In this document: one piece after another, positions 7,417 to 50,113 of the stretch
Numbering within the stretch: position 1 is the first letter of the stretch
Layout: each line of letters starts with the position of its first letter
Assembly: GCF_017161405.1 (NCBI RefSeq)
Contig: NZ_CP071051.1
Coordinates: 2,418,001-2,482,000 of the forward strand
Reading direction: 5' to 3'
DNA length: 64,000 bases
Origin: Leucobacter sp. CX169
Lineage (GTDB): Bacteria; Actinomycetota; Actinomycetes; Actinomycetales; Microbacteriaceae
Program-made: the position numbers and the translations under genes
Notes under the pieces: generated by a model
What the model saw: the letters and a program-made list of their open reading frames with translations, nothing else
Databases searched by the model: none
What the model was told of the DNA's origin: nothing

Positions 7417-8025
7417 CTAGATGACTCTCTCCGCCGCATCTCGCGCAGCAAGAATACTTCTGCCGAGTTTGCGAAGGTCGCCTGGGACCTGAAAAGCCCA
7501 CGAGCTTTCGCCAGAACCTGTCTCATGCACGGCGATCTGGCCGCCTACGTTTGGCAACTGGACGAACACCGAGGAGGGGTCGTCAACGTCGTTCCAGGCG
7601 ACACCATGCTCCAGCGGCAGGAGCCACCAGTCCGGCATCCCGAAAAGCTCGCTTTCCGTCGGGGGGACGCGCCGGTAAATCCGCTCAAATTCACGAACCG
7701 TGGCAGCGGGAATCAGCGTACTGAGCAGTTTGGGGCGAGTGTCTTCTTCCCCTGCCGCGGTGAGCAGCAAACCAATTTCGAGAGTGTCAACGTCCAAATG
7801 ACTATCTGTGCCGTCGTCGGAGTCGTCGTGTGGGGCCGTGTTCACAAACCCAACGACGCGACCGTTCTCGGTCTCAGCGACCAGCGAGACAGCCTGACCT
7901 TCTGCGCCAGCTTGAAGGTTGGCGCGGAGTATCGCGGTGAGATCGATATCTCCGCCTGGGTCTTCGAAGAGCGCGATCACCCCATCGAAGTGCCGTTCGG
8001 AGAGTCGCAGGATCGCTGTAGCCAT
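7417..8025 (-). CDS. hypothetical protein with weak GNAT-like N-terminus
   Basis: A 202-residue protein I do not recognise. The N-terminus (ILRLSERHFDGVIALF) and a strand-like VAETENGRVVGFVNTAP resemble the first half of a GNAT acetyltransferase, but the acetyl-CoA binding loop Q/RxxGxG/A is absent. The C-terminal half is rich in Trp, Asp and Pro. ATG 8025 is chosen over GTG 8031; neither has a strong ribosome binding site. It ends 120 bases before the helicase start and could share its transcript. Confidence 0.7.
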   Translation of the reverse strand: MATAILRLSERHFDGVIALFEDPGGDIDLTAILRANLQAGAEGQAVSLVAETENGRVVGFVNTAPHDDSDDGTDSHLDVDTLEIGLLLTAAGEEDTRPKLLSTLIPAATVREFERIYRRVPPTESELFGMPDWWLLPLEHGVAWNDVDDPSSVFVQLPNVGGQIAVHETGSGESSWAFQVPGDLRKLGRSILAARDAAERVI

Positions 8026-8167
8026 GCCCACAACGATACGGGCAGGTCAGCTCGACGCTCACGTCGAATACACGTGACCCGGTCGACATCCCAGACAAAC
8101 GCTGCGTTGGTAAGGTGAGCTTGCTCGAGGCTCCCCCTGATGGCGGCCCGGGCAGAGTCAGCGAGCC

Positions 8168-44300: not shown

Positions 44301-44897
44301 CTACGCCACTGGGCTTGCGACGATGATGTCGTTCTCGTCGAAGGTCATCGTCTCAAGGTTCAGGATGCAGGTGATCACGACCACTCGGCCGGGCACGTGC
44401 TCCCAGATGGGCTGCGCGCCAATGTCGGCCTTGTTGATCTCGAGCTTCTGTTCGACGACGTACTGCGCGCCGCGGTAGGCGAAGTGATCCCCAGCGACGA
44501 GCGCGCGAATGCCGTCTCCGGCGCAGCCGCCCTGCTCGCACGCGTGAGCGAGCAGGTAGTCGGTCCCGCCGTCCTCGGGGTACCCGTTCGCGGGGTCGAC
44601 GATCTGCCAGAAACTCTCACCCTCGTCCGGCGGGTTCCAGACCTCGGAGTATGGCATGACCTGGGTCGTATCGATGACGACCTCGGCCGCCGGTGCGGGC
44701 GCGGGCGCGGGCGCCGGAGTCGCCTGGGGTGTCGGGGTCGCGGTGATGGTGGAGGTCGGCTTCGGCGCCGCCTCACCCACGGGCTCACTGAAGACCCCCA
44801 TCAACGCGGCCGTCGTGAATCCCCCGGCAACTAGGAGGACCAGCCCACCTGCGGTGAACCATTTCCAGTGCCGTCGAAGGCTGGTGGTGAGCGTCAT
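44301..44897 (-). CDS. sortase-like membrane protein lacking the usual catalytic Arg
   Basis: A 198-residue protein: one N-terminal membrane helix (WFTAGGLVLLVAGGFTTAAL), a Thr/Pro/Ala linker with PAPAPAPA, then a domain laid out like a class E/F sortase. TDYLLAHACE gives the His, LVAGDHFAYRGAQYVVEQ is the typical middle strand pair, and VVVITCIL gives the Cys. In class F sortases a conserved Arg follows in a RSYRDN-like segment, but here the matching part reads MTFDENDIIV with no Arg. ATG 44897 has AGGA 7 bases upstream. It is downstream of a secreted protein gene on the same strand, separated by a terminator. Confidence 0.65.
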   Translation of the reverse strand: MTLTTSLRRHWKWFTAGGLVLLVAGGFTTAALMGVFSEPVGEAAPKPTSTITATPTPQATPAPAPAPAPAAEVVIDTTQVMPYSEVWNPPDEGESFWQIVDPANGYPEDGGTDYLLAHACEQGGCAGDGIRALVAGDHFAYRGAQYVVEQKLEINKADIGAQPIWEHVPGRVVVITCILNLETMTFDENDIIVASPVA

Positions 44898-44923
44898 GTG
44901 CATTCCTGAGTCATCGTGCCGCG

Positions 44924-44964
44924 AAAAAAGAACGGCGGCTCCTCGGGCATCGAGAAGCCGCCGT
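44924..44964 (-). terminator. intrinsic terminator after the secreted protein gene
   Basis: On the minus strand ACGGCGGCT and AGCCGCCGT pair around a loop that itself contains CTCG/CGAG, followed by TTCTTTTTT. It would end or attenuate transcription before the sortase-like gene. Confidence 0.9.
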
Positions 44965-44977
44965 CAGTACCTGCAGT

Positions 44978-45766
44978 CTAGGCGTCCTTGATACCGGTCT
45001 GCACCGAGACCGGGGGCTTCGGCTTGCCCGTCGCAGGCGGGGTGACCTCGCCCGAGCAGCCGGTGCCGAACGAGTAGGTATTGCCGGCAAACGTGATCGA
45101 GTTGACGATGGCTCCGTCCGAGCCGGTCATGCCGACGCCGAGGATCTCGAATACGTCGTTGTACTGGTCGATATCACTCTGCATGGACGCAAACAGATCC
45201 TGCGTATCGCCGCCATTGAAATACTCACTCGAGTCCGTCAGCTCCATGCCACTCAACGTGTGCACACCCGGGCCGAAGCCGGCCAGGTTGTACACCGTGG
45301 TGAACTCTTCGAGCTCGTGTTCTGCGCCCTCGCCGCTCTCGTAGTAAATGAAAGTGGGAAGTTGAATAGTCACGTCGCCCTGTGCGACATCGATCGAAAT
45401 CGAATCAATCAAAGCCTGCAGGCTCGCGGTACCGCTCGCGGCGTTCGCAGTCGGGCGCCCGTCTACCGGGAAACCCTTGAGCAGCTGCGTCACGTCTGCC
45501 GTTCCGACCGACGGCAGGAACGACACGGAGCAGGCGTTGAACGTCAGGCTGTCCGAAACCGGGACGCCCGGGTCCTCCGTGTTACCGATGTGCCACGTGT
45601 CGTAGTTATACCCGGGGGTACCCTCAGCGCCGTTCTCGAACCCAGCGACGTCGTTCGGCCCCACCACGGATCCGGCTGCGGTGGCGGGCGAAAGCCCGGT
45701 GAGAGTCAGTGCGGCAACTGCCAGTGCGGCAAAGCCGAATCGCAAGCCCGTGATGCGCTTCGTCAT
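44978..45766 (-). CDS. secreted protein with C-terminal PPATG/VQTG motifs
   Basis: A 262-residue protein with a clear signal peptide (FGFAALAVAALTLTGL, cleavage near ATA-A). The mature chain is acidic, with two Cys (FNACSVSF and GTGCSGEV) that could form a disulphide. The C-terminus reads VTPPATGKPKPPVSVQTG then IKDA. PPATG and VQTG resemble sortase motifs of the xxxTG type, but no hydrophobic helix or basic tail follows, so it is not a canonical LPXTG sorting signal. I do not recognise the family. AGAGGAA precedes the start. A sortase-like gene follows. Confidence 0.8.
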   Translation of the reverse strand: MTKRITGLRFGFAALAVAALTLTGLSPATAAGSVVGPNDVAGFENGAEGTPGYNYDTWHIGNTEDPGVPVSDSLTFNACSVSFLPSVGTADVTQLLKGFPVDGRPTANAASGTASLQALIDSISIDVAQGDVTIQLPTFIYYESGEGAEHELEEFTTVYNLAGFGPGVHTLSGMELTDSSEYFNGGDTQDLFASMQSDIDQYNDVFEILGVGMTGSDGAIVNSITFAGNTYSFGTGCSGEVTPPATGKPKPPVSVQTGIKDA

Positions 45767-45916
45767 GTACGTTCCTCTTCATTGAAGTGTCTTGACCGAC
45801 AAACTCGGCAAGCCCGGAATTCAGGCGCATTCGCCAGAGTTGGATGTGATCCAAAGTTAATCTATGTCAGATGTTGGGGGATGGCAAATTCACCGTCCTG
45901 TCATGGCGCACAACAC

Positions 45917-49066: not shown

Positions 49067-50113
49067 CTACCCGGCAGGATCCGCCCGCTCGGCGAGACCG
49101 GTCATCGCCTCGAGCACGAGTAGCGCCGCCAAGCGGACCGTGCGGCCGTCCGCCGAGTCGGCCGTCGCGTCGATCTCTGCGAGATCGAACGACGCGACGC
49201 GGGCATCCCGCGCCAGGAGTCGTGTCATTCGGCGCAGCTCTGCGGCAGAAATTCCGCCCGGCACCGCGGCTGGGCACGCCGGCACCACCGCGCGGTCGCA
49301 GACGTCGACGTCGAGGTCAACATGGATCGGCCCCTTACCGTCCCCCGCGATCGCGAGCGCCTCGGCCACGATCTCTCTGAGTGGTCGGTCGAAAAGTTCG
49401 TCGCGGTGGATCACCCGAATGCCGAGGTCGCGCGCGCGGTCGCGGTATGCCCGGGAGTTCGCGAAGTCGGCGATGCCGATTTGGACGATACGACGCGGGT
49501 CAAGGCCGGCCTCGACCAGGCGACGAACGGGCGATCCGTTGCTCCGCCCATCGCGCAGATCGTGGTGCGCGTCGAGGGTGATCAGCCCGCCCGCCCCGAT
49601 TGCGCCAGCAGCCAACGCCGCCGAATCAAGCTGCGCTCCGAGCACGCCTCGAGCGGCGGGCACCGTAAGCGAGTTGTCGCCACCGAGCGCGATCACGAGG
49701 CGGGAGTCGCGAGCGAGTGCGGCAATCGCTGCGGTTGCCGCCAGCTCACCCTCCACACTGTCGGGGTCTGCGAGGTCTCCCGCGTCGCGAATACTCAGCA
49801 CCTGGCTGAGTTCGAGCTGCGCCTCCTCACCCCGCACCCCCGGGGTGCCGGGCGCGACCGCATGGCCCGAGTAGCGCCGGAGGGCCTGCCGAATTGCGGC
49901 GGGGGTCTCGTGCGCGTTCGTCGCCGAGATTGAGGTACGCGACGTCGGTACCCCGACAATCACCACGTCCACGGCCTCGCCGCCAAGCGGGGCGGCCCAA
50001 CTGCCGGCGCGCGGCCAGAGCGGGTCGACCGGAAGCCCGGGGGCCACGCTGGGCGTCGCCGGGGTGAAAGCGGGCGCCGGGGAGGAGGAGGGGAAAGACG
50101 ATTGGTCGACCAT
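49067..50113 (-). CDS. hutG: formimidoylglutamase (arginase superfamily)
   Basis: A 348-residue Mn2+ hydrolase. Metal ligands appear in ALGGDNS (in place of the usual GGDHS), DAHHDLRDG and HVDLDVDVCD. The arginase fold with this context (divergent from hutH) indicates hydrolysis of N-formimidoyl-L-glutamate to glutamate and formamide, the last step of histidine degradation. Agmatinase or guanidinobutyrase would be alternatives without the context. It shares an operator-bearing intergenic region with hutH. Confidence 0.88.
   Translation of the reverse strand: MVDQSSFPSSSPAPAFTPATPSVAPGLPVDPLWPRAGSWAAPLGGEAVDVVIVGVPTSRTSISATNAHETPAAIRQALRRYSGHAVAPGTPGVRGEEAQLELSQVLSIRDAGDLADPDSVEGELAATAAIAALARDSRLVIALGGDNSLTVPAARGVLGAQLDSAALAAGAIGAGGLITLDAHHDLRDGRSNGSPVRRLVEAGLDPRRIVQIGIADFANSRAYRDRARDLGIRVIHRDELFDRPLREIVAEALAIAGDGKGPIHVDLDVDVCDRAVVPACPAAVPGGISAAELRRMTRLLARDARVASFDLAEIDATADSADGRTVRLAALLVLEAMTGLAERADPAG

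Follow-up and report, generated by a model that had tools for sequence, protein, structure and literature searches.

A His-Cys-Arg active site is stated for all sortases in PMC8361268 and PMC13257024, and the former places the catalytic Arg of all native sortases on the last strand. According to PMC13257024, mutation of the Arg abolished the activity of a class A sortase, and LPXTG is the motif recognized by the class F sortase from Cutibacterium acnes. The structure 5UUS is shown as 'class F' with a conserved triad in PMC8361268. Its class is unsettled, since in our searches it matched a class C/E profile with 79.4 bits, compared to a weak match to a class F domain (E 0.15).

The locus described here is a gene pair in a 64,000-nucleotide stretch of the genome of Leucobacter sp. 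CX169, called the window below. It encodes a sortase-like membrane protein, P0001, and a secreted partner, P0002. P0001 has Asn in place of the Arg and departs from the published criterion; the class A mutant counts against an active P0001, the triad of 5UUS against Asn as a feature of class F, and the C. acnes enzyme against a V-x-T-G code for all class F sortases. Sortases of classes C and E resemble P0001 in fold, membrane anchor, His, and Cys, but have Arg where it has Asn (25 out of 25 class C loci; NTERAISYA in L035, the class E enzyme of the same genome). Proteins encoded next to class C sortases mostly end in LPxTG with a transmembrane (TM) tail (16 out of 19), whereas the tail of P0002 carries SVQTG, neither LPxTG nor LAxTG. 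Class F (NF033748) shares the Asn with P0001, a feature found in this study and not part of the published definition. Its profile matches the P0001-containing alignment A3 (probability 99.2), and its neighbors carry GVQTG, GVDTG, and GVETG, similar to the signal of P0002, which however lacks their membrane tail. Class F also has Gly two residues after the Cys (30 of 32 domains) and Arg at Cys-4 (24 of 32), and P0001 has neither. Also close are class F-like sortase relatives of the Microbacteriaceae that we term N-type (L121-L149), which agree with P0001 in the His-Cys-Asn alignment, the P-G-R-L-V-V-I-T-C strand, and a V-x-T-G partner. Their putative substrates (SVATGG, AVNTGG, AVATGG) keep a TM segment and an Arg-rich tail, unlike P0002, and their His segment typically reads MHSLRNGG compared to AHACEQGGC in P0001, which lies on a long branch.

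Our preferred reading, held with moderate confidence, is that P0001 is a divergent, membrane-anchored cysteine transpeptidase of sortase fold with a His-Cys-Asn site and that P0002, which has no membrane tail, is its dedicated substrate, processed at SVQT/G.

Organization of the gene pair

P0001 is encoded by an intact open reading frame on the minus strand (positions 44301-44903 of the window). The 200 residues comprise an N-terminal TM segment, recognized by inspection at about residues 13-34, a linker rich in Pro, Ala, and Thr, and the sortase domain (about residues 75-200) with H120, C179, and, at the Arg site, N191. The likewise intact gene of P0002 (262 aa; 44978-45766, minus strand) specifies a signal peptide, identified by inspection, a main part, a variable linker, and the C-terminal end PPVSVQTGIKDA without hydrophobic tail. 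This end represents the putative sorting signal (44981-45016, minus strand; predicted cleavage between T257 and G258) and reads PPVSVQTG-IKDA directly before the stop codon. From the tripartite cell wall sorting signal P0002 has only the motif, while the hydrophobic segment and the positively charged tail are missing. A hydrophobic tail is impossible because of this stop codon and of the next start, which follows after a gap of 74 bases from the P0002 stop to the P0001 start. Loss of a former membrane tail by frameshift was rejected, as there is no room ahead of the next gene and all 4 orthologous partners are without tail.

The sequence-only reading had described the end of P0002 as PPATG...VQTG-IKDA lacking a hydrophobic tail. 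VQTG-IKDA and the missing tail were found as described, but PPATG was discarded as a signal because it lies in the linker, which differs in the other three partners. Comparison of P0002 with Pfam and NCBIfam gave nothing usable, the sorting domain GVDTG_CTERM (NF058571) included, and its AF2 model had a mean pLDDT of 42.

Predicted fold and classification of P0001

The AF2 model of P0001, built from a 5-row alignment, had pLDDT values mostly of 82-91 for residues 111-200, with weaker stretches at residues 121-130 (67) and 75-100 (only about 49-59). Among the 50 Foldseek matches listed for this model all were sortases (best E 7.4e-5). VIA-align of the model with 5hu4 gave Z 10.8 and rmsd 2.7 over 113 aligned residues, and Z was 8.7 at rank 50. 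Thus, a sortase beta-barrel fold with His and Cys in place is predicted for P0001, which answers the structural check proposed by the sequence-only reading.

Sequence models did not place the protein. P0001 matched no sortase model of Pfam and NCBIfam and gave no match to the class F model NF033748 (cut-off 166 bits) at E up to 10; its Aeromicrobium ortholog L026 scored 18.4 bits with PF04203, below the cut-off of 26.6. phmmer comparison of P0001 with the PDB returned low-complexity matches only, and a tblastn search of plasmids returned no match. Out of 10 N-type relatives scanned, L022 and L047 exceeded the Pfam cut-off for sortases, while no NCBIfam cut-off was reached by any of the 10. Hence, P0001 is sortase-like by fold and by His and Cys, yet fits none of the classes A-F by membership tests. 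It probably works like a sortase.

Asparagine at the position of the catalytic arginine

Profile-profile alignment with nine Arg sortases placed N191 on R202 and C179 on C193 (probability 90.5, E 1.4e-6). The columns of H120, G138, P171, T178, C179, and N191 are invariant in the 19 rows of alignment A3; His and Cys, as well as C122 and C127, are invariant in the 6 sequences of the ortholog group. The segment of P0001 beyond the Cys (ITCILNLETMTFDENDIIVASPVA) contains no Arg at all. This bears out the sequence-only reading, which had noted the retained His (LLAHACE) and Cys (VVVITC) and the missing Arg.

The Asn was also found in relatives. Across 398 genomes from the family, at least 31 N-type loci with more than 80 bits were detected outside the own genome, separated by a gap in score from class F-like matches with less than 58 bits. 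The order-level search of 396 genomes resulted in at least 36 matches outside the own genome, and 29 of these were read. These locus numbers are lower bounds, because at most 8 candidates were scored per genome. The Arg site was occupied by Asn in 23, Asp in 7, and Ala in 1 (the distant locus L150) of the 31 loci of the N-type family set, which include rows used to build the A3 model. In the order set 28 out of 29 had Asn and the remaining one was cut off. All 34 class F-type loci, composed of two sets of 25 and 9 of which 22 pass and 12 fail the NCBIfam cut-off, had Asn, and all 25 class C controls Arg. The corresponding Fisher p of 2.3e-9 is descriptive only, since the loci are related by descent. 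In the related loci the His was conserved in 60 out of 60 and the Cys in 59 out of 60, the remaining one being cut off. Asp, in the context SRDDMVIEA, was found in all 7 N-type sortases read from one genus (L136-L141, L145).

The column of the class F tally was located by its conserved Asn, and hhalign and hmmalign confirm it as the Arg-equivalent column. The class F Asn falls on the Arg of Arg sortases in profile alignment (probability 96.5, E 9.2e-10), and alignment of class F domains to A3 by hmmalign put Asn into this column in 32 out of 32, where selection of the domains had required Arg or Asn at the site (passed by 32 of the 34 loci). A substitute Arg shared at another position was considered and rejected: the commonest candidate position, Cys-6, holds Lys in the case of L025 and Gln in that of L053, and class F favors Cys-4. 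By these alignments, the Arg loss is not private to P0001; a different residue occupies the site in many sortase relatives from actinobacteria, including class F-type ones. For class F-type and related proteins our alignments contradict the universality of His-Cys-Arg as stated in PMC8361268 and PMC13257024.

The sequence-only reading had suggested either an Arg-independent transpeptidase or an inactive chaperone. The replacement of the Arg stands; inactivity is not the first inference for P0001, because the same residue is replaced in so many relatives, and it was dismissed as a default explanation since Asn is mostly conserved at that site. P0001 might still be a non-catalytic binding partner, chaperone, or sensor of sortase fold that grips the P0002 tail. 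The replaced Arg, the long branch, and the five ordinary Arg sortases of the genome, which are available for anchoring, are in line with this. However, we consider it unlikely given the invariant His and Cys of the ortholog group, their conservation in the related loci, and an Asn that is mostly conserved instead of drifting.

Conservation of the pair and phylogeny

A locus search detected three P0001 orthologs, two of them in Leucobacter and the third in Aeromicrobium. In both Leucobacter loci the partner gene is located directly upstream of the enzyme gene; the enzyme of L024 ends at a contig end, after ATRV. Among 54 genomes of the Leucobacter genus the partner was found in 3, namely the two previous loci and G452, which again has the pair. 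Hence, of the 5 enzyme orthologs that are complete or almost so, 4 are accompanied by the partner, and all 4 pairs have the same gene order. The recurrence of the pair in 3 further genomes of the genus, conservation having been proposed as a check by the sequence-only reading, is more than chance. The Aeromicrobium draft genome gave no match to the partner at E up to 0.1. The four orthologous partners end in PPVSVQTGIKDA, PPTSVQTAAK (twice), and PPTKIETAV. They keep P-P-x-[SK]-[VI]-[QE]-T-[GA] at the tail, while the linker ahead varies in length and sequence, and none of the 4 has a hydrophobic tail.

In a midpoint-rooted tree with 75 rows, taken from 115 and one class E sequence, the ortholog group (100/100) is placed next to 22 of the 40 N-type rows (94/96, not starred), with a branch length of 2.53. 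As the remaining 18 N-type rows have other positions, the tree as drawn does not show N-type as a single clade. The 12 class C rows and 1 class E row with Arg together make up one side of a branch (100/98). Exact places in this tree are unsure because of long branches, and on its very long branch the function of P0001 may have drifted. With 61% compared to 43-51%, the Aeromicrobium ortholog is more similar to P0001 than the Leucobacter orthologs; the closer relation to a member of the Nocardioidaceae hints at horizontal transfer.

Besides the five PF04203 sortases with Arg, the own genome contains another protein that belongs to the ortholog group, outside the window and about 46 kb from P0001. 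This paralog appears to be split by an rve-integrase insertion element into two parts (L027:6263-6529 and 7818-8156; own genome 2414262-2416155). Its 3' part matches clearly (54%), its 5' part only over TM segment and linker (E 4.9e-7). Nearby, a DUF11/DUF7507 surface protein of 1346 aa (L027:8445-12485, minus strand) ends in LVHTG-TM-RRKR, an Arg-rich end. A search of the own genome with the tail profile yielded 8 matches (best E 0.004), 4 of which were read and lacked the motif; this search was not sensitive, as it also missed the LVHTG protein.

P0002 might not be a substrate at all, its adjacency and tail reflecting another relation and P0001 serving other proteins. The Aeromicrobium enzyme without partner match points in this direction, and the apparently broken paralog next to the LVHTG protein suggests that other signals may be served. 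Four pairs in one gene order, a tail motif kept while the linker varies, and, within the limits of the insensitive search, the lack of the motif in the 4 matches read from the own genome make this quite unlikely, and we retain P0002 as the candidate substrate of P0001.

Tail motifs encoded next to related sortases

Flanks of 4 kb for L121-L160 (shorter at contig ends) and of 1.5 kb for the remaining loci were searched by script for adjacent same-strand genes (gap below 150 bases) encoding a hydrophobic stretch and a positively charged tail, and the motif ahead was read. In the pooled relatives (60 loci examined) 33 out of 42 loci with such a tail gene had V-x-T-[GA], of which, as in the other sets, a few matches are chance (e.g. 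GVPTA at L157 in class F; YVDTA at L199), because the script accepts any V/I-x-T-G/A within a 34-residue stretch. Tail genes were present in 22 of the 31 loci of the N-type family set (18 V-x-T-[GA], 1 LPxTG where a class C sortase in the locus was scored, 3 other) and in 20 of the 29 loci of the order set (15 V-x-T-[GA], 3 looser, 2 other). Class F had them in 24 out of 34 loci, half with V-x-T-[GA] (12) and half with looser motifs such as GVNSG and GADTG (12), and class C in 19 out of 25, with 16 LPxTG, no V-x-T-[GA], 1 looser (LAWTG), and 2 other. L132 was scored via the neighboring class C sortase and L135 on RVSTA though RIETGG is also present; AVNTG at L133, on the opposite strand, was left out of the count.

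Typical tails are SVATGG, AVNTGG, AVATGG, KVSTGG, and SVHTG. One other family of the order has NVQTG, NVQTA, or NIQTA (6 loci) and NAQTA (1 locus). By its sequence, the SVQTG of P0002 fits the V-x-T-[GA] pattern next to relatives. A convincing tail-less VxTG partner was absent from the 99 other loci scanned, which gave 3 pattern matches. The tail-less putative substrate is an unusual feature, seen here only in the ortholog group of P0001 and P0002.

The V-x-T-G signal is not wholly new, since a sorting domain of GVDTG type is listed in NCBIfam. This domain matched the class F neighbor at L068 (29.3 bits, cut-off 29) and weakly that at L155 (20.6); the other seven proteins scanned (six N-type neighbors and the L188 partner) matched no sorting domain. 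The literature searched, in which few subscription journals were covered, contained no paper on V-x-T-G-type signals, GVDTG, or His-Cys-Asn in connection with sortase, and none on sortase in Leucobacter or on Microbacteriaceae with a cell wall sorting signal. From the new sortase-substrate type suggested by the sequence-only reading, an unusual signal (SVQTG) without membrane tail remains plausible, whereas novelty of the motif as such does not, given the VxTG tails next to relatives and the NCBIfam entry.

Several of these neighborhoods have further features. Surface proteins tailed with SVATGG or AVATGG (L122:2192-3850, L137:2001-3869) next to N-type sortases contain PF13350, a tyrosine-phosphatase domain (E about 2e-37). 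A class F-like group (L152, L155, L156, L158, L160) is located beside proteins tailed with GVNSG, GVNTG, or GVPSG, of which the one scanned (L155) is a DUF4397 protein. At L142 and L146, N-type sortases are found downstream of surface proteins tailed VPATIPPAGFSLS-TM, perhaps another signal.

Proposed function

Fold, pairing, Asn, and V-x-T-[GA] neighbors are well supported by computation; cleavage, anchoring, the acceptor, and what N191 and the intergenic hairpin do are inferred. The signal peptide would direct the export of P0002, which for lack of a membrane tail would then be unattached on the outer side of the membrane. The exposed C-terminus of P0002, P-P-x-S-V-Q-T-G-IKDA, would enter the groove of P0001, where C179 would attack the T257-G258 bond, so that a short peptide (GIKDA; AAK or AV in relatives) leaves and an acyl-enzyme is formed. 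An amine, probably of a cell wall precursor, would resolve the acyl-enzyme and thereby attach P0002 to the envelope. N191 may donate the hydrogen bonds given by Arg in other sortases. Replacement of Arg197 by citrulline in S. aureus SrtA reportedly leaves most of the activity, in keeping with an amide side chain that could stand in for the Arg; no paper on sortase with citrulline or Arg197 was found in the literature searched (few subscription journals covered).

Alternatively, P0001 may cleave the P0002 tail mainly by hydrolysis and thus serve in maturation, as a protease by which a soluble secreted protein is trimmed or released, not anchored. P0002 has no membrane hold, the leaving peptide would be only 2-5 residues long, and loss of the Arg might favor water over amines. 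On the other hand, the full membrane-tail sorting signals of the relatives' substrates indicate anchoring as the ancestral job, and the Pro-rich linkers ahead of the motif may be similar to wall-spanning linkers. Altogether, hydrolysis as the main activity seems unlikely, and anchoring by transpeptidation is preferred.

A broader generalization is put forward more tentatively, as a possibility to which we give less than even weight: a large actinobacterial sortase group may use a His-Cys-Asn site and V-x-T-[GA] instead of LPxTG, and within this group the lineage of the window may process fully soluble, motif-only secreted substrates, for which no membrane-retention step is needed. Provided that such enzymes are active, natural enzymes would allow a direct test of what the Arg does, an anchor signal could be assigned to many unannotated surface proteins, and protein ligation could benefit from a sortase that needs just a short tag on a soluble protein.

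Putative regulatory elements and other genes

Between the two genes a 15-bp hairpin followed by a T run is located at 44931-44965 (minus strand). Hairpins of differing sequence fold in the gaps of all 4 pairs, with -33.6 to -40 kcal/mol and z of -2.5 to -4.3; the long T run is seen in the gap of the window only. A terminator scan found 1 element compared to a shuffle mean of 0.9, a count that alone is not above chance. The hairpin is possibly an attenuator giving more substrate than enzyme, and would in the proposed mechanism keep the level of P0001 under that of P0002. Upstream of the P0002 gene, a weak promoter-like match (9/12) was found at 45859-45887 (minus strand; 1 found, shuffle mean 0.3). 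Elsewhere in the window, a gene for a metal-sensitive repressor (PF02583; 48702-49061) adjoins an arginase-family gene (49067-50113).
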